A DNA stretch of 64,000 nt from Anaerococcus degeneri. Lineage in GTDB: Bacteria > Bacillota > Clostridia > Tissierellales > Peptoniphilaceae. Position numbers and translations under genes: made by a program. The notes beneath the pieces are model-generated. The model was not told the DNA's origin, did no database searches, and worked only from the letters and a program-made list of their open reading frames with translations. Within the stretch, counting starts at the first letter, position 1. Every line of letters starts with the position of its first letter. The stretch spans positions 62,001 through 126,000 of the forward strand of contig NZ_JAGGLO010000003.1 of the NCBI RefSeq assembly GCF_017874475.1, read 5' to 3'. Of the stretch, positions 23,229-46,900 are shown piece after piece.

Positions 23229-24965
23229 ATGAAAAAAGATATAAGTATATCAAACAATAAGGCCGTGATTAACTTTTCAAAGGCCTTTTTTAATGACACA
23301 GACGACTTATTAAGAAGCAAAGGATTCTTTGATGTAATCTGCTCCTTTGTAGCCTACCACAAGGAAAACCAAACAAGAATCTATACCTACCTAGAAAAAT
23401 TTTTTAGGGCAAGCGATATAGAAATTCTTGCAGGAGAGATTAGGGATATTACCAAAATCTTAACTGTAATGAGCCTTGATGAGATTTCCGAAAAAATCAA
23501 CAAGTACCACGACCTAGACAAGGAAAGAGATGCCCTAATTAGGATTGTAGAAGACATCTATGACTATTGGAGAAAGCTTGAAAGGTATTCTATTATCGAG
23601 CAGTCTGACTATGACAGGGGTATAGAAGTAGAAAACTTCCTTTCTTCAAACATCAATTTCAAGGACCTAATCCTTGATATCTACAGAAAAGCAGAATTTT
23701 CTGTCACAGGCAAGACACCAAAAGTCTTTAGACAAGTACCAGCAGGAGCCAATGCTTCAATAATTGTCAAAAATTTTGAAATTAACTACCCTGAAGACCT
23801 AAGGTTTTTAAATGAAATTCCATTTATAACCAAGGTAATGATCGAAACTCCTTACATAACCTACACCAAGTCCAACAAAAGGGATGGGTTCTTTGAGGAA
23901 GTTTATGAAAATCCAATCAAAGATTTAGATATAGATACAGACGAATTTTTGTGTTATCCTGCAAAAGTAGGTGACAACCTAGTATATATCTACTTCCACC
24001 ACAACCTAATCACCCACGGCATATCTGCCTCAAACCTCTTTGACCTAGCCGATGAAGAGGAAATCCAATCCAAAAGACCAGACGCAATTTATTTATTCGG
24101 TGGAGAAAATTCTAAGAATCAAAATGTTTTCTATGAAAATAAAAACGGCCTTCTAATCGGATATGTAAACTATACAGACAAGAAAGACTACTTTGGCTAT
24201 CTAAAAAAGATGTGCCTAACCCTTTCAAATATCATCTCAATGAAAAAATCCTACCTCCCAATCCACGGAGCTGGGGTAAATGTTGTTTTACAAAATGGAA
24301 AATCAGCCAACGTTGTAATCCTAGGTGACTCTGGAGCTGGTAAAAGCGAATCTATCGAAGCTTTCAGAACTCTTGCCAAGGACTACATCAAGGACATGAC
24401 AGTAATCTTTGACGACATGGGAACTTTTAGGCTCAAAGACGATAAGGTTTTAGCCTTCGGTACTGAAATCGGTGCCTTTGTAAGGCTTGACGACCTAGAT
24501 GCTGGATATGCCTTTAAGCAAATAGACAGGTCCATCTTCATGAACCCGGATAAGGTAAATGCAAGGTTAATTATGCCAGTTGCTGACTACAACCAAATAA
24601 TGGCAGGCTATGAAGTTGACTTCTTCCTATATGCAAATAACTATGACAAACTAAAAAATGGTGAAGACTCTATTTCAATCCTAGATGACGAAAAAGAGGC
24701 CATCAAGATTTTTAAAAGAGGAGCGAGATTTGCCAAGGGTACAACTACAGAAACTGGCCTAGTAGAATCCTACTTTGCCAACCCATTCGGCCCTTACCAA
24801 AAGCAAGATACTTGCGATAAGTTAATCGAAACCTACTTTAACAAACTTTATGAAAACAATAAAAAAGTCGGCCAAATCAAAACCCAACTTGGCGTAGAAG
24901 GAATGGAAACAGATGGCCCACTAAAATCAGCTAAGGAACTTTTTGAAATAATCAAGGCCCTTTAA
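23229..24965 (+). CDS. HPr-kinase/PEP-carboxykinase-like P-loop protein with long N-terminal region
   Basis: A 578-residue cytoplasmic protein. The N-terminal part (about 1-150) looks helical and acidic, with no family I recognise. The C-terminal part has LPIHGAGVNVVLQNGKSANVVILGDSGAGKSESIEAFR (written across about 24260-24365), in which GDSGAGKSES closely resembles the P-loop of HPr kinase/phosphorylase. It is followed by a DDMGTF acidic motif typical of the HprK/PEPCK superfamily. It is almost twice HprK length and lacks a clear HprK C-terminal signature, so it is not HprK itself. Substrate unknown. It stands alone after azlCD and ends at a strong terminator. Confidence 0.65.
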   Translation: MKKDISISNNKAVINFSKAFFNDTDDLLRSKGFFDVICSFVAYHKENQTRIYTYLEKFFRASDIEILAGEIRDITKILTVMSLDEISEKINKYHDLDKERDALIRIVEDIYDYWRKLERYSIIEQSDYDRGIEVENFLSSNINFKDLILDIYRKAEFSVTGKTPKVFRQVPAGANASIIVKNFEINYPEDLRFLNEIPFITKVMIETPYITYTKSNKRDGFFEEVYENPIKDLDIDTDEFLCYPAKVGDNLVYIYFHHNLITHGISASNLFDLADEEEIQSKRPDAIYLFGGENSKNQNVFYENKNGLLIGYVNYTDKKDYFGYLKKMCLTLSNIISMKKSYLPIHGAGVNVVLQNGKSANVVILGDSGAGKSESIEAFRTLAKDYIKDMTVIFDDMGTFRLKDDKVLAFGTEIGAFVRLDDLDAGYAFKQIDRSIFMNPDKVNARLIMPVADYNQIMAGYEVDFFLYANNYDKLKNGEDSISILDDEKEAIKIFKRGARFAKGTTTETGLVESYFANPFGPYQKQDTCDKLIETYFNKLYENNKKVGQIKTQLGVEGMETDGPLKSAKELFEIIKAL

Positions 24966-25361: not shown

Positions 25362-26882
25362 TTATCCCCTACCCATAAATGATAGAACCTTTTCGTAGAG
25401 TGGCCCTGAAAATGAATAATCTATTACTGTCTTATCCCAGTCTAAAATACTATTTGCATCTATTATCTCTGGGTTTAGGCCAGTAAGATTGCCATTTTTA
25501 TCTAAACTTACAAGGCTTTCTATTTCCTTATCCCTGTAGGCGATTTTGATTTTCACACTTGGAGTGTCTTTTTCTTGACTCTGGCAAATAAGTACGGTTG
25601 ACCTCTGGCAAATCCCATCAAGAAAGTCATTATCTTTTTCAATGACCCTTCCATTATCTGCCTTCTCAACAGACCTTAGACTTACAAGAGCATTCTCCCA
25701 TTTTGGAACGACTAGGTAAAAATCATTACCAGTTAGAAAAGCCTCATAATTTTCAGGATCTCTCTGACCTTCTAGGATTAGTCTTGGGTCTTTATAGTCT
25801 GCAAAACATGCTTGCCAGGCAAATAGTTTACTCATTACATTAGGTAGAGTATCTTCAGCATTGGCCCTGCCCATATAGATTATAAAGGCATTTACCTTTT
25901 CATCATCTGGGTCTATGCCAAGCCATGCAGCCATCCTTACAAAGTCATCTGAATATCGGTTAGTTTTATAATCAGGTCCAGCTAGGGTTTGGGTTTCTGT
26001 TGCTACCCCTATGCCTGCATCTGTATAGATTTTGCTAAAAAACATTAGCCTACCTACTTCGTTTACATAAAATATATTAGGATTTTCTTGCCACAAGTCT
26101 TTGATGGCAAAACCCTCTTTATTGCCCATGTCATACTGGTAGGAAGGATTTGAAATATAACTGTCATAATGGTCAATTATGTGCCTATAGTAGTCCGCTA
26201 GGCTTTTTTCCATGAGGTCTAATATCTCATCAGGACTAATATCAAAATAGGATAATAGCTCATCATCTGTAAGACGCTTGCCATCTTTTATTGAAAAATT
26301 ATAGGTCCTATATACTTGAAAACCTGAGTCAATATTATTGTAGAGATGGATAAAGAGGCTTAGGATTTCTTCGTCTTGGTAGGTTGAAAACTCAGCATGA
26401 ACAAAGGGTTCATCGCTATCTTTAGAATATTCATCCGCATCCTTGTACATGGCCTTTAGGTTTTCGAGGTCCTTTTCTATTTCCTCATTGGCTAGGTCCG
26501 CATCCTTTGAATCTAGCAAAATTTTTGGTAGGTGGATACCAAAGATGGGTCCCTTGGCCTTTTCCATTTGCTTGTCAATCACAAAGTCTTTCCAAACCTC
26601 CCTATCTTCAACAAGAGTAGAGTTACTTCCTGCTAGAGCGCCTGTTACAGGATGCCCCTTAATTGGCTCTCTCTTTGCTATTTCACTTTCAGAAGGCTTA
26701 TCCAAATTATTTTGACTTTCTCCTGAAGATTTACCCAGACTTTCATTGTCATTATTTTTATTTACTGGTTTTTCTTCTTGGCTTATTGGCTTCGGATCAT
26801 CAGTTTTGCCTTCTTTATTAGCACAAGCAGTCAAGGCTAAGCCTAAGCAAAGGATAAGGATTTTATACTTTTTCATCACCAT
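25362..26882 (-). CDS. lipoprotein with DUF3298-like domain
   Basis: About 506 residues. The signal peptide ends at lipobox LALTAC (C20 from the chosen start), followed by a polar Lys/Glu/Ser/Asn linker to about residue 75. The segment EILSLFIHLYNNIDSGFQVYRTYNFSIKDGKRLTDDELL resembles the RsiV/PdaC-type DUF3298 fold. Otherwise unrecognised. The start is ambiguous (GTG 26888, ATG 26882, ATG 26876). I chose 26882 because AAGGA lies 7 bases before it. It overlaps the zinc-ribbon gene by 20 bases and completes a three-gene envelope operon. It is exported, probably to watch or stabilise the outer membrane face. Confidence 0.75.
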   Translation of the reverse strand: MVMKKYKILILCLGLALTACANKEGKTDDPKPISQEEKPVNKNNDNESLGKSSGESQNNLDKPSESEIAKREPIKGHPVTGALAGSNSTLVEDREVWKDFVIDKQMEKAKGPIFGIHLPKILLDSKDADLANEEIEKDLENLKAMYKDADEYSKDSDEPFVHAEFSTYQDEEILSLFIHLYNNIDSGFQVYRTYNFSIKDGKRLTDDELLSYFDISPDEILDLMEKSLADYYRHIIDHYDSYISNPSYQYDMGNKEGFAIKDLWQENPNIFYVNEVGRLMFFSKIYTDAGIGVATETQTLAGPDYKTNRYSDDFVRMAAWLGIDPDDEKVNAFIIYMGRANAEDTLPNVMSKLFAWQACFADYKDPRLILEGQRDPENYEAFLTGNDFYLVVPKWENALVSLRSVEKADNGRVIEKDNDFLDGICQRSTVLICQSQEKDTPSVKIKIAYRDKEIESLVSLDKNGNLTGLNPEIIDANSILDWDKTVIDYSFSGPLYEKVLSFMGRG

Positions 26883-28341
26883 GATCACATCCTTCTTTGT
26901 TAAATTTTATCTTATTTCCCTTGATTTCACAGCTATTTTCTCCATCAATACAATAGTTTTCAAGGCCGTATTCATGCCTTATAAATTCATCAAGGCTTAT
27001 AAGATTAGTCACTTCGTGTTTACTTTCAACCTCATAGGAGTGCCTTGCATCCTGGTTCCTATATTTGCTGTAGACATTATAATAATATATGAAACCAGCA
27101 ACTAAGAGTAACCAGAAAAAGTCTTTGGAATCTTGAAACTTTGTATCATCAAATATATCAAAGGCTGCAACGAACCATAGGACAAGGGCTATTAAGAAGC
27201 TTATAACTTCCACAAGGGCTGATGCCATAAATAGTTTTTTGAAATTTATAGGCACTGATCCCATGGTTTCCTTAGTCCTTGCATTTACTGCAACATAGTG
27301 TAAAACGTGTTTATCACCCTTATTTTCCATATAGGAGTAAAGCCAAACCGGCAAATAGGAAGCCTTCCAAGAATCGCCTTTTACAATAAATTCTTCTTCT
27401 TCCCAGTTAACTCCTCTGTCATATTCTTCGATGGTATCTTTGATGGCAAATCTAGCCACATCTGAGCCCCACACGTCTGTAATTTTTTTAAGATCAGATA
27501 CATTGGTATCTCTCTTTTCGGATGTATAGCCTTTTAGGTAGTTGGCATTGTATTTGACACAATTTTCTGTATCAAAAGGCATGATAGAATTTATGATATT
27601 TGTTGTCTTTTCCTTTGATGAATAGTCAAGCTTATCCATACTTGATTCTATTGATAAATCATCAATGCTTATGTCAAAGTCCCTGCCTACCCTGTAAAGA
27701 TCAGCATCATAAACGGTTTTTTCATTATCACCATCTTTTACTGTCCTAGTATCGGTTAAGATTTCTCCCTTGCCACTAAGTTTCATATGGCCGTTTATAT
27801 CAACAAGCATATATGGAAAATACACCCCACATATATTTTCGGCATTAAATTCCTTAATAAATTGTGGGTGAGCAAAGGTCTTTCTTTGACCAACAAAATT
27901 TTCAATCTCTTCTTTTGCTTCATTCTTAGTCACAGCAAATGGCAAAATTACGTCAGGTACAGCTCCATTATCAATTTTAGAATTTATTGAAAGGGTATTT
28001 CTGCACCAATGACACCTGGCTTGGGTAGAAGTTGCTGTATCGATAACTACTTCAGCCCCACAACTCTCACATTTTAAGGTTATAATATCATCAGCATTTG
28101 AATCTATATCTGCCGCTCCTGTCCCTAGGTAATTTCCTTGTAAACTAGAAATATCAGCATCTTCTTCCGCAAGTTCTGGGTCAAATTCATGCCTGCAGAA
28201 ATTGCACCTAAGCTTGCCAGTCTTGGTATTTGTAGAAATATCAGTAGAACCACACTTTGGACACTTAACCTGGCCATCTTTTACTTGGTCTGTATCTTTA
28301 ATTATGTTTATGTTTTCATTATTATCTCTTTCGCCTGCCAT
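26863..28341 (-). CDS. TFIIB-type zinc-ribbon membrane protein (YdjG-like)
   Basis: A 492-residue protein with two N-terminal zinc ribbons: CPKCGSTD...CNFC (about 24-50) and CESCGAEV...CHWC (about 91-115). A long soluble middle follows, then two membrane helices at about 370-420 (FMASALVEVISFLIALVLWFV and FFWLLLVAGFIYYY) and a short C-terminal tail. This layout is that of Bacillus YdjG, which acts with YdjH, YdjI (SPFH) and PspA at stressed membranes. Here it follows the SPFH gene by ten bases with a strong SD (aaggaggagg). No pspA homologue is nearby. Confidence 0.82.
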   Translation of the reverse strand: MAGERDNNENINIIKDTDQVKDGQVKCPKCGSTDISTNTKTGKLRCNFCRHEFDPELAEEDADISSLQGNYLGTGAADIDSNADDIITLKCESCGAEVVIDTATSTQARCHWCRNTLSINSKIDNGAVPDVILPFAVTKNEAKEEIENFVGQRKTFAHPQFIKEFNAENICGVYFPYMLVDINGHMKLSGKGEILTDTRTVKDGDNEKTVYDADLYRVGRDFDISIDDLSIESSMDKLDYSSKEKTTNIINSIMPFDTENCVKYNANYLKGYTSEKRDTNVSDLKKITDVWGSDVARFAIKDTIEEYDRGVNWEEEEFIVKGDSWKASYLPVWLYSYMENKGDKHVLHYVAVNARTKETMGSVPINFKKLFMASALVEVISFLIALVLWFVAAFDIFDDTKFQDSKDFFWLLLVAGFIYYYNVYSKYRNQDARHSYEVESKHEVTNLISLDEFIRHEYGLENYCIDGENSCEIKGNKIKFNKEGCDHGDEKV

Positions 28342-28351
28342 AGCCTCCTCC

Positions 28352-29578
28352 TTAGAATCCTAAAAGATCAGATTTAGCCTTATCAAATTCTTCCTGGCTA
28401 ATAACTCCTGCATCTAAAAGTTTTTTCATTTGGATTAATTTTTCTGTTGGATCGACTTGTGCGTTATTTGACGCTTGTTGGTTTTGTTGATTTTGGTTTG
28501 GAATATTTTGTCCTACTCCAAAATTAGGTTGGTAAGAATTTGCTCCCCCTGGCTGGTTAAGTCCACCTGCCATGGATCCTGCAGCATTCATTCCCATGCC
28601 CATAAAGGCCATTCCTGCACCACCGCCATTTTCTCCTGCACTTTGCATACCCCTAGCAACTGATTGTTGGAAGAATGAATTTCCACGATTTCCAGAAAGA
28701 GCATCCGCTTTTTTGACATCTGATAATAATTTTTTTGTATCTTCGTCATATTCGATAGCAAGGATTGCTGTCTTTATAATTTCAAGTCCCCTATCTGTCT
28801 TCCATTGGTAGGCATCCTCAACAGCCTTGGTTAGGGACTTCGCAAAACCAATTTGATCACCCTGGATTTTGCTCATCCTATTTCCCCTTGAAGGGTCATT
28901 TGTATAATTAGAAAAAGCTGCGGATAGGCTGCCTACAACTTCGTTAAAGAGTTGTTCACCTAGCTCATTATCTATATCACCAAAGTCAAAAACAGGTGCA
29001 TCCTCAATTAAGTATTTTTGAGGAAGGAAATTTTTGACAAAAAGAAGGGGATCGACAATCTTAAGTGTATATGTTCCCCTGGTTACAGCCCCTACTTGGG
29101 TGCCAAGATAGGCATCATCCCAATAAATTTCACTTTGAGTTCCAAAACGGTTGTTTGGTATTTCTTTTAAATTTACATAAAAAGCAAGTTGCTCTGCCCC
29201 TGGTTGGCCGCCAAACTTAATCTTTTCCCAAGATGACTGAATTAGCGAACCCATGACTCCATCACCTACGAAAATTGACTTGGAACTTGTTTCGTCACTT
29301 GAATATATAAAGCCACCGGCTTCTGCAACTACGCCAGTAATCATCCCATTTTCGATGGTAATGAGAGCTGTGCCTTCAGGGACGATTATCTTAGACCCAT
29401 TAGAAATAACATTTTCACTTGACCTGGTGTTTGAGCCTCTACCTTGATTAGTTCCTTGGCTAACAGCTGGAAATATACCTGCTGTTGCTGGTATGCCTGG
29501 CATAGGTTTGTAAAAATCTAGCCATTGGTCTGCAAAACTTCCTCCGAGTGCTCCTGTAAATGCTTTTATAAATCCCAT
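28352..29578 (-). CDS. SPFH-domain protein with SHOCT tail (YdjI-like)
   Basis: A 408-residue protein. It starts MGFIKAFTGALGGSFADQWLDFYKP, typical of the YdjI/virion-core-like SPFH group. The SPFH/band-7 region spans about 60-270 (IIVPEGTALITIENGMITGVV, then YTLKIVDPLLFVKNFLP). A Gly/Met/Asn/Gln-rich linker (about 315-370) joins a C-terminal SHOCT motif, EKLIQMKKLLDAGVISQEEFDKAKSDLL. SPFH proteins form membrane-associated scaffolds. First gene of the operon with the zinc-ribbon and lipoprotein genes. SD is taggagg. Confidence 0.87.
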   Translation of the reverse strand: MGFIKAFTGALGGSFADQWLDFYKPMPGIPATAGIFPAVSQGTNQGRGSNTRSSENVISNGSKIIVPEGTALITIENGMITGVVAEAGGFIYSSDETSSKSIFVGDGVMGSLIQSSWEKIKFGGQPGAEQLAFYVNLKEIPNNRFGTQSEIYWDDAYLGTQVGAVTRGTYTLKIVDPLLFVKNFLPQKYLIEDAPVFDFGDIDNELGEQLFNEVVGSLSAAFSNYTNDPSRGNRMSKIQGDQIGFAKSLTKAVEDAYQWKTDRGLEIIKTAILAIEYDEDTKKLLSDVKKADALSGNRGNSFFQQSVARGMQSAGENGGGAGMAFMGMGMNAAGSMAGGLNQPGGANSYQPNFGVGQNIPNQNQQNQQASNNAQVDPTEKLIQMKKLLDAGVISQEEFDKAKSDLLGF

Positions 29579-29670: not shown

Positions 29671-29724
29671 ATAGACCAGAGGTCAATCTTTGGCTAAATT
29701 TACAAAGATAGACCTTTGGTCTAT
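29671..29724. promoter_or_regulatory. nested palindromes GACC-N3-GGTC upstream of the SPFH operon
   Basis: Two 11-bp dyads, GACCAGAGGTC (29674-29684) and GACCTTTGGTC (29711-29721), are themselves the arms of a 22-bp inverted repeat with two mismatches and a 10-bp loop. It may be an operator, a cruciform or a terminator. It lies about 90-145 bp upstream of the SPFH start codon. Confidence 0.5.
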
Positions 29725-29807: not shown

Positions 29808-31415
29808 TTATTCTATTTTTTCATTGACCTGGTCATTTTCTTCATTAACATTTCCTATTATCTGATCAACCATTCCACAGCCTTTAATAAGGTCAAGGTA
29901 AAGAAGTAATTCTCCCCTAGATGATACATTAAGTTTTTTATAAATTTTCAAAATATGGTGTTTGGCAGTACTCTTGCTAATATAAAGTATTTCTGGAAGC
30001 TGGTCTACGTCATAACCCTTTATCAAAAGAACTAAAACATTTAACTCAGCGGGAGTGAGGCTTGAGGTTGCTTCAATAAATTTCTTGAACTTGTATCCTA
30101 GATAAGGAGGTAGCCCCTTGATTGGCCTATCTTTAATTTTTTCCCTAACATTTTCCAAAAACTTATTTATCTCGTAAAAACCAGAGTCTAAAATGTCTTG
30201 CCTGTAGTCTTCGTCTAAGATTTTCTCCTGGTTTTCTATTAGGGAAAGTCCATCTGTAATTGGGCTTATGTACCTTCTAGTAAAATTCCAGCTAATGACT
30301 ATAGCAAAAAATAAAAATAAGACAACAGAAATTGCAATATTGGATATATTTTTAAAAATATCCCTATTATATTCATCAAGAGGAACCATAGAAATAATTA
30401 AGGACTTATCCCCGTTTTCTATTAGGGAAACTTCTCTCAATAAACCTATGTATTTGGATTTTGAGCCTACAAATTCCTTTAAGTCCCTACCATGATCTTT
30501 GATTTCTAAAATATCATCTGGTAGAAAATAATATCCCTCCTGGGTTCCGCTGCTAAGGGCCTTTTCGGTATCTATTTTACTATCAGCCACAGGCAAAAAT
30601 ACAGAACTTAACCTCTTCATCTTGGATGGTTGGGCAATTTTTTCCTTAAAATACATTTCTTCTACTTCAAAGCCACAGACTCCATAAAGCTTGCCATCCC
30701 TACTCGCAATAGGAAGGCTTATTAACATGACCTTTTCACTTGTTCCAGGTAGGGTAAATACTTTGGTCATCCTATAGGAATCATAAATAGACTTATTTAC
30801 ATTTTTAGCAAGGAGAGCGTAGGCAGGTAGATTTGATAAATCATATTCTAACTTCCACTTCCTATGGGGCATTGCCGAGTGTTTCTTAGCCACATCTGCA
30901 TCTCCCCTATATACAGTAACAGACGATTCCTTCAAGCTCCTAGAATCAAGTTTTAAATACAAACCAGACCTAGAATCTTTTGCCCCCTTATTTTTAGAAT
31001 TAACAGTTGTATTGAACAAGACAAAGGCTCCTGATGTATCTGCGTAAAACATGGAGCTTTTCAGGTTTTCGAATATCCTATCCTGTATTTGATTAAGGAG
31101 TTTTTGATTATCTCTCAAATCTTCAAAAGAAATTTTTTCCTCATCCAAAATCTCTTCTAGGATGTCACTTGTATCTTGGGATAAGTGCATAGCAGAAATA
31201 GCTGACTTATCAAAATAACCCTTTATTTCCTTATCCAGCATAGATACTTGGATATCAAGGCTCTTTACATAATCTTTTCTGACATTTTTGTATTGGTCAA
31301 ATAAAACCAAAGCCAAAACTATGAAAAATAGCAAAAGCCCAGCAAAAATAATCATATAGGAAAAAAGCTTTCTATACATTGAATTTTTTTGATATTTCTT
31401 ATTTATATCAAACAA
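29808..31415 (-). CDS. membrane-bound one-component sensor with LuxR-type HTH
   Basis: A 535-residue protein. An N-terminal helix (MIIFAGLLLFFIVLALVLF) is followed by an external sensory region of about 300 residues of Cache-like type (SKSSMFYADTSGAFVLF-like strands, GKLYGVCGFEVEEMYF), a second helix (IAISVVLFLFFAIVISW) and a short HAMP-like linker. The C-terminal LuxR HTH (about 455-515) reads SLTPAELNVLVLLIKGYDVDQLPEILYISKSTAKHHILKIYKKL (across 29920-30060). There is no kinase or receiver domain. The start is TTG with AGGAG six bases before it. It lies 15 bp after a binding-protein gene, so the pair probably forms one signalling unit. Confidence 0.82.
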   Translation of the reverse strand: MFDINKKYQKNSMYRKLFSYMIIFAGLLLFFIVLALVLFDQYKNVRKDYVKSLDIQVSMLDKEIKGYFDKSAISAMHLSQDTSDILEEILDEEKISFEDLRDNQKLLNQIQDRIFENLKSSMFYADTSGAFVLFNTTVNSKNKGAKDSRSGLYLKLDSRSLKESSVTVYRGDADVAKKHSAMPHRKWKLEYDLSNLPAYALLAKNVNKSIYDSYRMTKVFTLPGTSEKVMLISLPIASRDGKLYGVCGFEVEEMYFKEKIAQPSKMKRLSSVFLPVADSKIDTEKALSSGTQEGYYFLPDDILEIKDHGRDLKEFVGSKSKYIGLLREVSLIENGDKSLIISMVPLDEYNRDIFKNISNIAISVVLFLFFAIVISWNFTRRYISPITDGLSLIENQEKILDEDYRQDILDSGFYEINKFLENVREKIKDRPIKGLPPYLGYKFKKFIEATSSLTPAELNVLVLLIKGYDVDQLPEILYISKSTAKHHILKIYKKLNVSSRGELLLYLDLIKGCGMVDQIIGNVNEENDQVNEKIE

Positions 31416-31430
31416 GGGCTGCTCCTAAAA

Positions 31431-32750
31431 TTATCCTATCAGCTTTTCCCAGCATTCTTCTATCAGACTATTAACATCTTCGCCATTTTTATATCTTTCT
31501 TCAAAGGATTTTTGATTAGCCCTAAGCCAATCATAAAAATTTAAAACCTTATTATAATCATAAGACTCTGAGAGAAAGCTGTAGTCTTTTTCCATCTTTG
31601 ATAAGCTATGGTATAACTCCTTATAATCGTGGTTTTCAAATTCCATAGTTAAAACTTTGTTAAAGGCCTCATTTCTTACAGGCATATAGCCAGTTTTTGT
31701 AACAAAGTCTAAGTTTCTCCCACTTTCTGTAATCCATTTGGCAAATATGGCTGCCGCCTTTGCCTTTTCATCAGTAGTCTTATAGGCGCAAAGCCCTGTA
31801 CCAGCTAGGGTATCAAACTTATTTCCACTCTTATTTATTGGCAAAGCTAAAACTTTTAGATCCATAGGCTCAGACCTATTGTCTGGGTAGGTCACCATAT
31901 CATTATAATACAAAACAGCGGCAGATGAACTTATCCCTGCTAGGGTCTCCCCTGTCATCATCTGGGTATTGGCATAAAGATCTGACACAATGATATGGCC
32001 CTTTACTAGGGAGGTCATAAATTTATCAAATTCCTTTTTAAATTCCATGTTATTTTTATCATACCAGCCCTGGTCGTTATGGAGTTTGGCATTTGGATTT
32101 GTTGAAAGATTGGCCAATTCGATTTCCCTTAAAATGTAGTCCATGGCACAAAAAGCCTTGCCATTAGACCATTCATAAAATTTCTCAGCTGCATCAAAAA
32201 ATCCATCCCAAGTTAATAAATCTTCATAATCAAGGCCTGTATCTTTAGAAAACCTAGCAAACATAGACCCATTAATAAAGAGCATATGGGTCGATTTTGA
32301 GATAGGAAAAACTAAAAGCTTATCTCCCACCTTGCCATCTTCTAAAAAATCTTCCTGATAATCACTGAGTTCTTCTTTTGTAAAATAATCTTGCCAATCA
32401 ATTAGGTTTTCACTCCCCAAATCATCGGCATTTCCACTATGGCAAAAGAACAAATCTGGCATTTTTTTTGCCCCGGACTTGCCCGCCTGAGAATCTAAAA
32501 GCTCATCTCCAATTTCTGCTGAATTACTTGTCGCAGTAACATTTATAACAATTCCTTCCTTACTACCCACAGTTTCGTTAAAGTCATCAACGAGCTTATC
32601 CATAGGCGATGAAGCCTGTTCGCCATAAACGTGCCACATTGTGAGGCTTACAGGTTCTTTTTTATTTCTTGAAAAAATAATGAATATAGTAATAATAATA
32701 AAAATTAATAAAAAAATTATTCCCACATTCTTGTATTTACTATTTTTCAT
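31431..32750 (-). CDS. family 1 extracellular solute-binding protein, membrane-anchored
   Basis: A 439-residue protein of the sugar-type family 1 binding proteins (VSLTMWHVYGEQASSPMDKLVDDFNE start, TLAGTGLCAYKTTDEKAKAAAIFAKWIT and FVTKTGYMPVRNEAFNK near the C-terminus). The N-terminal segment IIFLLIFIIITIFIIFSRNKKEP has no lipobox Cys and no obvious cleavage site, so it is likely held by an uncleaved helix. No permease or ATPase genes adjoin. Instead a membrane LuxR sensor follows in the same transcript. Sugar or glycan fragment as ligand is an inference from the family. Confidence 0.85.
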   Translation of the reverse strand: MKNSKYKNVGIIFLLIFIIITIFIIFSRNKKEPVSLTMWHVYGEQASSPMDKLVDDFNETVGSKEGIVINVTATSNSAEIGDELLDSQAGKSGAKKMPDLFFCHSGNADDLGSENLIDWQDYFTKEELSDYQEDFLEDGKVGDKLLVFPISKSTHMLFINGSMFARFSKDTGLDYEDLLTWDGFFDAAEKFYEWSNGKAFCAMDYILREIELANLSTNPNAKLHNDQGWYDKNNMEFKKEFDKFMTSLVKGHIIVSDLYANTQMMTGETLAGISSSAAVLYYNDMVTYPDNRSEPMDLKVLALPINKSGNKFDTLAGTGLCAYKTTDEKAKAAAIFAKWITESGRNLDFVTKTGYMPVRNEAFNKVLTMEFENHDYKELYHSLSKMEKDYSFLSESYDYNKVLNFYDWLRANQKSFEERYKNGEDVNSLIEECWEKLIG

Positions 32751-43115: not shown

Positions 43116-44195
43116 CTAATCTGCTTGTGGGGCTATTTTTAAGTCTAAAAACAAGTCATTGTACAAAATAGTAGTTTCCTTGCCGAGATGTTTGAAAACT
43201 GCCAATTTATCGATAACGTCGTCATCTGGATAGATGGTCTTGTCTGCCCTGGATTCTGGGTCGATTAAATCCATTGCTTTTTTATTTGGGGTAGCATACC
43301 TGATATAGTCAGCATTTCTTGCAGCCACTTCTGGCCTTAGAAGATAGTTAATAAGGGCATAGGCCCCTTCTTTATTCTTGCTAGTTTTTGGTATAACCAT
43401 GGTATCAAACCAAATATTCGACCCTTCCTTAGGGATAATATAGGAAAGATTTTCATTCATACTTTCAGCTATTGCAGCCTCACCAGAGAAGGTAATTCCT
43501 ATATCGGCCTCTTCTTTAGCCATATACATCCTAATCTCATCCGCCAAAAGAGCCTTGACATTCTTCATAAAAGGCACAAGGTCGTTTTTGACTTTTCTTA
43601 AAATTTTTTCATTTTTTTCATTTATATCATAGCCATCTGTCAAAAGTCCAATGCCTAATGTTTCCCTGGCCCCATCGAAGCAAAGAATTTCCCCTTCAAA
43701 CTTAGGGTCCCAAAGTTTTTTCCAAGAATCAAGGTCTTCTGGATTGTATTTTTCACTATTGTAAATTATTCCAAAAGTTCCCCAAAAATATGGAATTGAA
43801 TATTCATTACCAGGGTCATAGACCTGGTCTAAAAATCTCTGGTCAATGTTATCTAGTCCCTTGATTTTTGAGTGGTCTAGCTTTTCCAAAAGCCCCTTTT
43901 CTCTCATCATTTCAACTGTGTATTCAGATGGGAAGGCAATGTCGTAGTGGGTCTTTCCTTGTTCAATTTTAGCCATCATAGCCTCATTGGAATCGAAAGT
44001 TTCATAGATTATCTTATAACCAGTTTCCTTTTCAAAATCGCTTAGGATTTCTGGATCTACATAGTCGCCCCAGTTATAAAAATATATATCCTTATCATTG
44101 GTCCCATTTGAGCTTGAATTTAATCTTTCCTTGCCAAAAACTAGAAGTAGGGTTAGGGTCAAAATCCCTAGGACAAATTTATAAACCTTGTTCAT
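43116..44195 (-). CDS. potD: spermidine/putrescine-binding protein PotD
   Basis: A 359-residue polyamine receptor of the importer. Motifs are IYFYNWGDYVDPEILSDFEKETGYKIIYETFDSNEAMMAKIEQG, IPYFWGTFGIIYN and WDPKFEGEILCFDGARETLGIGL. The N-terminal hydrophobic segment FVLGILTLTLLLVFGKE lacks a lipobox Cys, so unlike many Gram-positive PotD it is likely held by the uncleaved helix, or is released. It overlaps potC by 17 bases. Last gene of the operon, followed by a strong terminator. Confidence 0.94.
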   Translation of the reverse strand: MNKVYKFVLGILTLTLLLVFGKERLNSSSNGTNDKDIYFYNWGDYVDPEILSDFEKETGYKIIYETFDSNEAMMAKIEQGKTHYDIAFPSEYTVEMMREKGLLEKLDHSKIKGLDNIDQRFLDQVYDPGNEYSIPYFWGTFGIIYNSEKYNPEDLDSWKKLWDPKFEGEILCFDGARETLGIGLLTDGYDINEKNEKILRKVKNDLVPFMKNVKALLADEIRMYMAKEEADIGITFSGEAAIAESMNENLSYIIPKEGSNIWFDTMVIPKTSKNKEGAYALINYLLRPEVAARNADYIRYATPNKKAMDLIDPESRADKTIYPDDDVIDKLAVFKHLGKETTILYNDLFLDLKIAPQAD

Positions 44196-44982
44196 ATTTC
44201 TTTGCCTCCCTTCTTTCTATCATGTAATAAATAACCACCATAATAAGTGATATAGCAAACATTAGGGCAGATAGGGCGTTGATTTCAAGGGAAATTCCTG
44301 TTCTCACCCTAGAATAAATTTCTATAGAAAGGGTCGAAAAACCGGAACCCGTTACGAAAAATGTCACCGCAAAATCATCTAGGGAATAAGTCAACGCCAT
44401 AAAAAAGCCTGCAAAAATACCGCTTGCGATATTTGGCAAAATTATCTTATTTAAGATAGTCATATCATTTGCCCCCAAGTCTTCGGCAGCCCTTATCATA
44501 TCTTCATTAAGGGCATAGAGCCTTGGAAGGATCATTAAAACTACAATAGGGATTGAAAAAGCTATGTGGGCCAAAAGGACCGACAAAAATCCCATAGGAA
44601 TTTTTATTAACATGGAAAATAAAATCAAGAAACTCGCACCCATCATGATGTCTGGGAGGACCATCAAAACTGAATTTAAGCTCAGGATTCGTTTCCTAAT
44701 TTTTTTGTTTTTTGTATAATAAATCGAAATCGCACCTAAAGTACCGATAACACTTGCAATTAAGGATGACAAAAGGGCCAAAATAAGCGTATTTAAAACT
44801 ATATTTATAAGCCTCTTATCAGAAAAAACTGCCAAGTAGTGGTCTAGAGTGAAGGATTCGAAAGTATTCATGTTGCCGCCGCTATTGAAGGAATAAAAAA
44901 TCAAATATCCCAGAGGTAGGTACATAATTACAAAAACGAAAATCAAAAATAAATTTGAAAATTTAGTTGATCTATTTTCCAT
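44179..44982 (-). CDS. potC: spermidine/putrescine ABC transporter permease PotC
   Basis: A 267-residue membrane permease with about six helices. Start is NLFLIFVFVIMYLPLGYLIFYSFNSGG. The coupling motif is AAEDLGANDMTILNKIILPNIASGI, then SLDDFAVTFFVTGSGFSTLSIEIYS, typical of PotC. It overlaps both neighbours (11 bases with potB, 17 with potD). SD is gagggggg. Confidence 0.95.
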   Translation of the reverse strand: MENRSTKFSNLFLIFVFVIMYLPLGYLIFYSFNSGGNMNTFESFTLDHYLAVFSDKRLINIVLNTLILALLSSLIASVIGTLGAISIYYTKNKKIRKRILSLNSVLMVLPDIMMGASFLILFSMLIKIPMGFLSVLLAHIAFSIPIVVLMILPRLYALNEDMIRAAEDLGANDMTILNKIILPNIASGIFAGFFMALTYSLDDFAVTFFVTGSGFSTLSIEIYSRVRTGISLEINALSALMFAISLIMVVIYYMIERREAKKYEQGL

Positions 44983-45769
44983 TTACGTCCCCCCTCCTGT
45001 TCAAAAATGAAATCACTGCAAACATGATTCCGATTAGGACAAGGCCAATAGTTGATCCCATGCCCCAGTTTTGGGTCACTAGATAGTGCTGTTCGACAGC
45101 TGTTCCCAGTGTAATTATCTTATTGCCCCCGATTATCCTTGTGATTAAAAATAGGGATAGGGATGGGATAAAAACCGCTTGAAAACCAGCTATAACCCCA
45201 TCCATTGAAAGAGGCAAAATTATCTTCCTAAAGGTTTGGAACTTAGTCGCTCCCAAATCTTCGCTTGCGATTATATATTCCCTTGGAATTGTATCTATGG
45301 ACCTAAATATAGGCAAGATCATAAAGGGAAGTTCTACATAAGATGCAACCATGATGAAGGCTGGGTTCGTAAAAAGAAAACCCTGGCTTGCTAGGCCCAA
45401 AAGTCCTACGATTGTTCCGTTTTTGTTAAAAAGTCCGATAAAGGCATATGCCTTAAGAACTAGATTTATCCAGGTTGGCAAAATTACCAAGAGCAAAATC
45501 AAATCCTTGTGCTTAGCCTTGGTCAAAAAATATGAAAAAGGATAAGCCCACAAAAGGGTAAAGGAAGTGATTAAAAAGGCTGTCAAGAATGAATTTAGGG
45601 TCATTATTATATAGTTTTTGCTCGTAAAATAGGCTATATAATTATCAAAGGTAAAATTGCCATAAATATCAAAAAATGACTGGTAGAGCAAAAGGAGGAT
45701 TGGCGCAATTATAAATACTAAAATCCAAATATAGTAAATAAAGGTTAATTTTTGGTATTTTTTAGCCAT
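44972..45769 (-). CDS. potB: spermidine/putrescine ABC transporter permease PotB
   Basis: A 265-residue membrane permease. The start [21 protein letters not shown] at 45767-45769 overlaps the potA stop by 8 bases. A frame 20 codons longer lies wholly inside potA and is less likely. The coupling motif is [28 protein letters not shown], then [25 protein letters not shown]. Pairs with PotC. Confidence 0.95.
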
Positions 45770-46874
45770 CGCTTTCTCCTGTAGCATATTTTTCGATTCT
45801 CTTATCAAAGGCCTCTTCGGATTCGCCATATCTCATAACGTGGATATTATCAGGATCTATCTTGATTCCAATGTCATCTCCCTCTTCAAAACGCCTAGTT
45901 GTGTGGATTTTCCAAGAAAAATTCCTCTTATCAATTGCTATAAGTTCGTTAAATACCCCACGATAAAGGATATTGTCTATATTTACCACAATATCAGCGC
46001 CTTGGGCTGGGACAAGCTCTATATCTTCAGGTCTTATAACGACTTCTACCCTTTCGCCCTTTGCAATACCAGCGTCAGAACAATCAAAGACCTTGCCCGC
46101 AAATTCTACCTTGTAGTCATCTACCATTTTAGCCTTTAGGATATTGGATTCGCCGATAAACTGAGCAACATAGCGGTTAATTGGCTCATCGTATATGTCT
46201 TTTGGTGGTCCTTGTTGGACAATTTTCCCCTTATCCATAACAAAAATATGGTCGCTTAAAGCTAAGGCCTCTTCCTGGTCGTGGGTTACAAAAACGAAGG
46301 TAATCCCCAACTCCCACTGGATATCAGAAAGAAGGACCTGCATGGACTTTCTTAATTTCATATCAAGGGCTGAAAGTGGCTCGTCTAAAAGGAGAACGTC
46401 TGGTTTATTGACAATAGCACGAGCAATAGCCACCCTTTGCTTTTGCCCACCAGACATTTGGCTTACCTCACGCTTTTCAAAACCAGCTAGGTTTACCATA
46501 GCAAGGGCTTTTTTAACTTCTTTTTGTATTATGGCCTTATCAGTTTTTTTGATTTCAAGGCCAAAGGCCACGTTGTCGTAAACATTCATGTGAGGAAAAA
46601 GCGAATAGTTTTGAAAAACCGTATTTACAGTCCTCTTACTTGCTGGGACATCTCCCACATTTTTTCCATTTATGTAAACAGAGCCACTTGTCGGCTCCAA
46701 AAATCCTGCTATTAAATTTAAAATAGTAGTCTTGCCGCAACCAGAAGGACCTAAAAGGGTATAAAATTTCCCTTTTTCAAGCTCTAGGTCGACAGATTTT
46801 AGGACTTCCTCATCGCCAAAAGACTTGGAAACCCCGTCAAGAACTACCGAATATTTTTCAAAATTTTTATCCAT
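45762..46874 (-). CDS. potA: spermidine/putrescine ABC transporter ATPase PotA
   Basis: A 370-residue ATPase. Walker A is [10 protein letters not shown]-loop [23 protein letters not shown], signature [15 protein letters not shown], Walker [17 protein letters not shown] and H-loop [12 protein letters not shown]-terminal TOBE regulatory domain follows from about 285. The start at 46872-46874 has GGGGGG seven bases upstream; the in-frame ATG six codons earlier is in front of that SD. First gene of potABCD. Confidence 0.96.
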
Positions 46875-46900
46875 TTGACAACCCCCCAACATTTTCTCAT

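Follow-up and report, generated by a model that had tools for sequence, protein, structure and literature searches.

Can a solute-binding protein pass a signal from outside the cell directly to a DNA-binding domain held at the membrane? The question is raised by two genes of Anaerococcus degeneri located on the minus strand of the stretch of 64,000 nucleotides analysed here (the window; contig NZ_JAGGLO010000003.1, positions 62,001 to 126,000, from a genome of 2.17 Mb). A gene for a solute-binding protein (SBP; 31431–32750) is followed, after a spacer of 15 bp, by a gene for a membrane receptor with a LuxR-type DNA-binding domain (29808–31415). The original prediction, made from the window sequence, described an anchored binding protein adjoining a two-helix LuxR receptor with neither permease nor ATPase beside them. 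It was correct overall: the neighbours scanned by Pfam are of other kinds (the scan covered part of the window genes, and the OGG-like gene upstream of the pair was classed via its relative). The dyads, the linked envelope operon and the wider receptor family described below are additions to it. We consider it quite probable that the pair would constitute a transcription factor that is tethered to the membrane, gated by the SBP and in control of an envelope regulon.

The receptor (535 aa) has the order TM1–dCache–TM2–linker–GerE, as assigned by Pfam, AlphaFold2 and hydropathy. Two transmembrane (TM) segments, TM1 (residues 21–39, 31299–31355, hydropathy 3.21) and TM2 (residues 357–375, 30291–30347, hydropathy 2.57), enclose an external domain of approximately residues 44–356 (30348–31286), and the LuxR/GerE domain occupies residues 451–505 (29901–30065; PF00196, E 5.7e-10, 39.1 bits against a cut-off of 23.5). 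The large external domain and cytoplasmic LuxR helix–turn–helix (HTH) of the original prediction are thereby confirmed. By sequence the ectodomain gives a weak dCache_1 match (E 0.0054), under the Pfam cut-off; the AlphaFold2 model (mean pLDDT 72.5) aligns at residues 44–356 with solved dCache ligand-binding domains, those among the matches listed being mostly from chemoreceptors and the best PDB match being Tlp1 (4wy9, Z 16.8, rmsd 4.0 over 254 residues). No REC or autoinducer domain was found among the four Pfam families matching up to E 1. In a contig scan that matched one locus, the window receptor was 97% identical to its Anaerococcus lactolyticus counterpart.

The SBP (439 aa), which would act as co-receptor, matches SBP_bac_8 (Pfam, E 1.2e-19); it is a solute-binding protein as originally stated, with SBP_bac_8 replacing ‘family 1’ as its exact assignment. 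A single hydrophobic segment at residues 9–27 (32670–32726, hydropathy 3.24) forms its N-terminal membrane anchor, and no lipobox cysteine was found, in agreement with the earlier reading of a helix-held protein. The anchor takes the place of the lipobox of its relatives: the cysteine is present in the SBPs of G037, G079, G092, G094 and G095 and absent from those of the window, G013, G016 and G017 (G, C and L numbers are our handles for genomes, contigs and loci). Of 39 SBPs from fetched loci, 32 have a lipobox according to a pattern scan; those without one come from L015, L016, L017 and L115, and from L095, L104 and L121, where the start is truncated or in doubt. In the window, the lack of a lipobox is a derived state. 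A profile of 26 relatives’ SBPs matched structurally solved SBPs of sugar and UgpB type (best 7c0f, E 5.8e-15), and the window SBP had no NCBIfam match. These solved relatives, of sugar and glycerophosphate type, are too distant to name the ligand; going by such distant kinship alone, it would perhaps be an envelope-derived glycan or glycerophosphate compound. Internal stop codons occur in three SBP genes, L023:9460–10791 (G091), L175:8110–9573 (G583) and L182:8945–10129 (G501), which are either pseudogenes or affected by sequencing errors.

How regularly do the two genes occur together? We sampled 130 genomes of the family, 249 of the order and 391 of the class. Receptor matches were obtained in 12 of the family genomes (E 1e-5), two of which (G068 and G027) matched in the HTH alone and were dropped, and SBP matches in 13 (E 1e-10). 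Wherever the full receptor is present in the family, the SBP adjoins it (10/10, the window being the tenth). A TM1–dCache–TM2 profile matched 19 order genomes and 37 class genomes. Five of the class matches (G336, G426, G532, G536 and G599) lie in frames of about 1000 aa, and the two that were scanned (L172 and L174) are GGDEF-EAL proteins; the other 32 end in GerE. Altogether the GerE form was found in 49 genomes of 17 families. The 49 receptor loci that we fetched (48 genomes, excluding the window and leaving out G046) all keep the GerE end, and 42 of them carry a same-strand SBP gene within 250 bp upstream of the receptor. The pair therefore recurs throughout the class at the level of gene order, and the conservation of the neighbourhood, proposed as a check by the original prediction, was borne out. 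Among the remaining loci, L112, L114, L122 and L123 start 0–123 bp upstream of the receptor at contig edges, and in L095 the SBP adjoins the first piece of a frame-broken receptor. This receptor, L095:1854–3357 (G172), is either a pseudogene or the result of a sequencing error. Sequence identities of the SBP and of the ectodomain rise and fall together (rho 0.87 for the LuxR pairs, 0.76 for all 40), a pattern that shared descent alone can produce.

The strongest indication that the two proteins act together comes from relatives with other outputs. The SBP profile (26 rows) matched 49 of the 391 class genomes at E 1e-40. Next to second-tier SBPs (E 1.5e-125 to 2.6e-95) a dCache-type protein is encoded in 15 of 17 fetched loci, the exceptions being L168, at a contig end, and L183. 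Ten large dCache partners, nine from second-tier loci and L196 from the family, were scanned with Pfam: their outputs are GGDEF (L169, L171, L177 and L182), GGDEF-EAL (L170, L172, L174 and L196), HisKA-HATPase-REC (L176) and GGDEF combined with HisKA-HATPase-REC (L175). The SBP and dCache ectodomain therefore look like an exchangeable input unit, and it is mainly because they are the part shared across these outputs that we believe SBP and receptor to work together. The proposal of the original prediction that the SBP serves the receptor’s outer domain fits these pairs, physical contact and ligand being the parts of it that we infer. In a tree of 51 SBPs (a quick tree, no bootstrap), all 26 LuxR partners fall on one side of a branch with SH-aLRT 95 and are separated from the two SBPs, in L189 and L195, that are adjoined by permeases. 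Weaker-scoring SBPs (L184–L191 and L194) have no dCache neighbour. Some genomes carry two SBP–dCache cassettes: G421 (L105 and L169) has one with LuxR and one with GGDEF output, G599 (L176 and L180) has one with a histidine kinase–REC protein and one with a 997-aa protein, and G336 has L177 and L179. Orphan SBPs without a dCache partner were seen in family f33 (L184:8208–9647, L185:7092–8531, L186:7817–9280 and L190:7914–9344); that of L184 comes after YmdB-like and RNase Y genes and before a sodium:solute symporter gene (Pfam), and the other three loci are similar by gene length only.

Which DNA sites would such a receptor recognize? Between the receptor and SPFH genes of the window lie two inverted repeats, or dyads, which are putative operators: ATAGACC-TTT-GGTCTAT (29708–29724), invariant in six aligned genomes, and an imperfect copy, ATAGACC-AGA-GGTCAAT (29671–29687), altered in G017 and degenerate in G079. 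The intergenic alignment (G000, G013, G016, G017, G037 and G079, from two genera) contains 19 consecutive invariant columns, ATATAGACCAAAGGTCTAT, against a mean column identity of 55%. In G079, which belongs to another genus and has a rearranged operon, the dyad stands before the zinc-ribbon gene, which has become the first of the operon. Across these six genomes the exact 15-bp core TAGACC-N3-GGTCTA was found seven times: every genome has one copy at the pair, and G016 has a further copy at another place. Pairs of other families mostly have a single dyad upstream, of different half-site and the same 17-bp, 7-N3-7 geometry: ATCACCC-N3-GGGTGAT was present in 14 of 21 listed SBP upstream regions. 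With at most one mismatch, 66 sites were found in 27 of 39 pair genomes, versus one site for the reversed pattern. The exact dyad is present in 22 of the 391 class genomes, that is in 16 of 32 with the GerE receptor versus 6 of 359 without it (Fisher p 3e-15, kinship uncorrected). The site also follows the recognition helix: genomes with the helix NT[ILV]KTH have the ATCACCC dyad in 27 of 31 cases and those with other helices in none of 8, and in the window group the helix STAKHH goes with the ATAGACC site. The recognition helix of the window GerE domain, STAKHHILKIYKKL, is identical in G013, G016, G017 and G037. Dyad, pair and helix are thus linked in the genomes compared. We propose an operator for these two HTH groups only, since no shared dyad was found in the remaining ones. 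As a separate observation, G612 has two exact dyads 155 bp apart.

The genes linked to these sites suggest what might be controlled. In the window the proposed target is the adjoining minus-strand operon, which starts with a YdjI-like SPFH/SHOCT protein (28352–29578; Band_7_1 and SHOCT above the Pfam cut-offs, PF13421 at 25.2 bits for a cut-off of 24). It continues with a zinc-ribbon protein of YdjG-like make-up (26863–28341; Zn_Ribbon_TF, E 1e-4; PF08271 at 22.2 bits, under the cut-off of 29) that has one TM segment, a C-terminal hydrophobic stretch at residues 376–394. A lipoprotein with the lipobox LTAC (25362–26888; weak PdaC match, E 0.042) is possibly the third member, and its homologue stands beside the operon in G013, G016, G017 and G079. 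In Bacillus subtilis the pspA-ydjGHI genes are under SigW control. There a Band-7 protein and a zinc-ribbon membrane protein are co-encoded, according to the passages on this operon (PMC8581546, PMC9239133), and the likeness of the window operon to it is one of domain make-up, not of direct comparison. SPFH and zinc-ribbon genes are near the pair in all ten pair genomes of the family; in G095 they are divergent from it and two small genes intervene. Of the 130 family genomes, 42 have an SPFH homologue and 32 of these 42 lack the pair, which for this reason gives the impression of a control module that was added to a gene of wider distribution. Genus g31 has a second GerE protein, of 232–238 aa (L020:3965–4663, L021:13486–14184 and L023:4082–4798), whose gene lies on the opposite strand past the zinc-ribbon gene and is preceded by one for a protein of 422–447 aa; the two perhaps form a two-component system close to this operon.

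Across the class, the recurring neighbours of the pair are DUF6591 lipoproteins, DUF4870 membrane proteins, zinc-ribbon proteins and SPFH proteins. In 42 pair genomes, DUF6591 gave 18 matches at E ≤1e-40, 14 of them beside the pair, and DUF4870 gave 13, 10 of them beside the pair. For dyads remote from the pair, we examined 32 stretches around 33 sites that lie beyond the pair loci fetched (one stretch, L218, shares some sequence with the end of L088), leaving out nine of the 66 sites (G329:C62, G316:C36, G316:C101, G607:C222, G562:C191, G421 at 3879956, G412:C214, G507:C30 and G507:C84). Thirty-one of the 33 are intergenic and at most 200 bp upstream of an open reading frame (ORF), versus 1420 of 9600 random positions (14.8%) in the same stretches. 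The DUF6591 sites G356:C29 and G173:C80, still among the 33, are not counted as independent because they lie at contig ends and perhaps belong to a split pair locus. The predicted remote targets were partly checked with Pfam (10 proteins, 5 without a match). They include lipoproteins, DUF4870 proteins on other contigs (L220–L223), an SLH protein (L197), a phosphodiester glycosidase (L201), a polysaccharide flippase (L207, with L208, L209 and L211 alike by eye) and an AraC regulator (L220, Pfam). Most of the remote targets are envelope proteins, some being regulators or unassigned. One dyad of G421 lies upstream of a gene for a large protein (L212:2424–4700) that by eye resembles a MalT-type ATPase regulator. 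The glycan ligand guessed at in the original prediction finds no support here, the linked genes being mostly envelope genes rather than sugar-use operons. A regulator of glycan catabolism was rejected as the main reading, since no sugar-use operons recur among remote targets or among neighbours (as tallied for the 25 families heading each of two lists, of 80 and 103 families, which cover 65 of 72 upstream and 64 of 87 downstream neighbours); single glycoside hydrolase genes do occur. The SPFH protein of the window, the DUF6591 protein of L089 and the DUF4870 protein of L111 had no NCBIfam match, and word searches of the literature found no paper naming DUF6591.

From these observations a working model can be drawn. 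The SBP, tethered on the outer face of the membrane, would bind a small ligand and, either loaded or empty, dock on the dCache domain of the receptor. A signal passing through TM1 and TM2 would then alter the dimerisation or the pose of GerE, which, still membrane-bound, would bind the 17-bp dyads and so activate or repress transcription. Its target in the window would be the adjoining SPFH/zinc-ribbon operon; elsewhere the targets would be lipoproteins (those of DUF6591 and others), DUF4870 membrane proteins, SLH proteins and a flippase and, in most cases, the pair’s own promoter as well.

Could the adjacency of the two genes have a simpler cause? The SBP might be an ordinary transport protein serving a distant permease, with the receptor sensing its ligand directly through dCache and the two genes standing together for the sake of shared regulation. 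dCache domains usually bind small ligands directly, and the usual role of an SBP from this superfamily is to serve an ABC transporter, as the adjacent permeases in L189 and L195 illustrate. A complete ABC set is present in the window about 10 kb from the pair (43116–46892; SBP, two permeases and ATPase by Pfam), and a peptide-type set lies just downstream of the pair on the other strand in L097. These two sets have their own SBPs, however, that of L097 being SBP_bac_5. In four of the 49 loci, a phmmer scan with ten permease-type queries placed genes for transporter membrane proteins no more than 6 kb from the receptor. All are on the opposite strand, and they are of three unrelated kinds: L111 and L122 have CbiQ, L097 has peptide-type permeases and L100 has an ABC-2 exporter protein. 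The same scan found no same-strand permease-like gene in the 49 loci and one further membrane gene, 9.3 kb off on the opposite strand, in L117. Genes resembling ABC ATPases (cluster c6) are no farther than 5.2 kb away in L097, L099, L100, L110 (there beside an FtsX gene), L111 and L122; L018 has one at 8.4 kb. Apart from the two CbiQ loci, no transporter kind recurs beside the pair; permease or ATPase genes adjacent in relatives, which the original prediction had named as grounds for refuting it, are not a regular feature. Together with the separate grouping of the LuxR-partner SBPs and an SBP–receptor adjacency kept across families and output swaps, this makes the transport explanation improbable.

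Two other explanations concern the dyads. They might be the sites of a different regulator acting on envelope genes, with the pair simply one more member of its regulon. A dyad upstream of the pair itself is what would be expected of a regulated gene, although autoregulation would place a site there as well. The six pair-less genomes with the dyad, the HTH groups without one, and the regulator genes beside some sites (AraC in L220 by Pfam, Crp- and MalT-like genes in L203 and L212 by eye) also favour this explanation. Against it stand the enrichment of the dyad in pair genomes, its agreement with the type of recognition helix, and the Anaerococcus group, in which a different half-site with the same geometry is found at the pair in 6/6 genomes; we regard another regulator as unlikely, though slightly less so than the transport explanation. 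Alternatively, the double dyad of the window might be a hairpin, either a terminator or an RNA element. Taken as one, its two dyads make up an inverted repeat of 25 nt (88% complementary, loop of 10 nt), and Rfam gave sub-threshold matches only for the dyad region, to generic and microRNA hairpin models. But G079 keeps a single 17-bp dyad though the large hairpin has been lost there because the second copy is degenerate, and the dyad of other families is mostly single and upstream of the pair. A separate hairpin-like stretch followed by T was moreover noticed by eye directly 3′ of the receptor stop codon, although it is absent from the output of the window promoter and terminator scan, which gave no more matches than shuffled sequences. 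The hairpin is, in our estimation, very unlikely.

Several observations weigh against the SBP-gated transcription factor itself. L120 and L125, whose receptors are truncated or broken, have no SBP within more than 8 kb, and no SBP remnants were found there. The structure model of the SBP is poor (pLDDT 61). Membrane transporter genes do occur in the four loci mentioned, and at least 3 kb of flank on both sides of the receptor is available in only 28 of the 49 loci. The Anaerococcus-type dyad is not clean at one mismatch (27 sites versus 7 for the control), and seven of the 21 listed SBP upstream regions lack the ATCACCC dyad. So do four genomes with the NT[ILV]KTH helix (G166, G402, G521 and G554) and the eight pair genomes with other helices, including G330, whose STVKTH helix is little different. 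Conversely, the exact dyad occurs in six pair-less genomes (G296:C112, G321:C1, G340:C97, G451:C11, G510:C87 and G612:C83), and the search for a shared dyad found none in g31/g32, f35/f46 and other HTH groups. Finally, the Fisher test and the co-variation overstate independence because the genomes share ancestry. Taken with these reservations, comparative genomics supports the pair well as a putative system.

How would it relate to known systems? In the portions of PMC9993111 dealing with NspS–MbaA of Vibrio cholerae and Sinorhizobium meliloti, an SBP is likewise the sensor for a co-encoded two-TM receptor, of GGDEF-EAL type, and our GGDEF-EAL cousins (L170, L172, L174 and L196) are laid out alike; there, in proteobacteria, the SBP is PotD-like and the output is c-di-GMP turnover instead of a DNA-binding domain. 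CuaD–CuaS–CuaR of Ruminiclostridium cellulolyticum, as presented in parts of PMC10384115, offers a signalling SBP that binds a sensor protein in a clostridial species. It has three components, including a histidine kinase and a response regulator, and controls sugar uptake, whereas in the window pair the DNA-binding domain is inside the receptor and the linked genes are envelope genes. The co-component systems VtrA/VtrC and ToxR/ToxS (PMC9214523, a text in which LuxR does not occur) are two-gene cassettes of a membrane-tethered transcription factor and an outside partner, as far as the relevant sections of that paper describe them. There the partner is lipocalin-like, unlike the SBP found here, and the factor combines an N-terminal HTH with a single TM helix, unlike the C-terminal GerE, two TM segments and dCache of our receptor. 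We do not file the pair with the VtrA/VtrC superfamily because these two defining features fail. By analogy, it would work like NspS–MbaA outside the membrane and like the co-component factors inside.

The SBP-stimulated receptors listed in the part of PMC9602780 devoted to them are chemoreceptors, sensor kinases, diguanylate cyclases/phosphodiesterases and Ser/Thr kinases, with no membrane transcription factor in that list. In those receptors the ligand-loaded SBP binds the outer domain, as we suppose for the pair, which shares with them a ligand-binding domain between two TM helices and an adjacent SBP gene (42/49). Literature searches by word found no paper describing an SBP paired with a membrane LuxR factor. 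It seems reasonably likely that the pair represents an undescribed signalling class, widespread in one bacterial class, in which anchored SBPs gate LuxR-type factors that, while tethered to the membrane, run a conserved envelope-maintenance regulon through the 7-N3-7 dyad; it would be part of a larger SBP–dCache input cassette whose outputs are swapped among DNA binding, c-di-GMP turnover and phosphorelay. Such a pair would provide a very short route from binding protein to promoter, and suggests a little-known way of switching genes straight from the cell surface. Families that are still uncharacterised, DUF6591 for instance, would gain a regulator and a class of function, and anaerobes of the sort that live on people would gain a pathway of envelope regulation. 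As a predicted operator and a target list come with it, the pair is directly testable.

A last observation concerns a gene of the same part of the window. It encodes a 578-aa protein (23229–24965) which, without a Pfam match at E 1e-6, is found in the same place in G013, G016 and G017.

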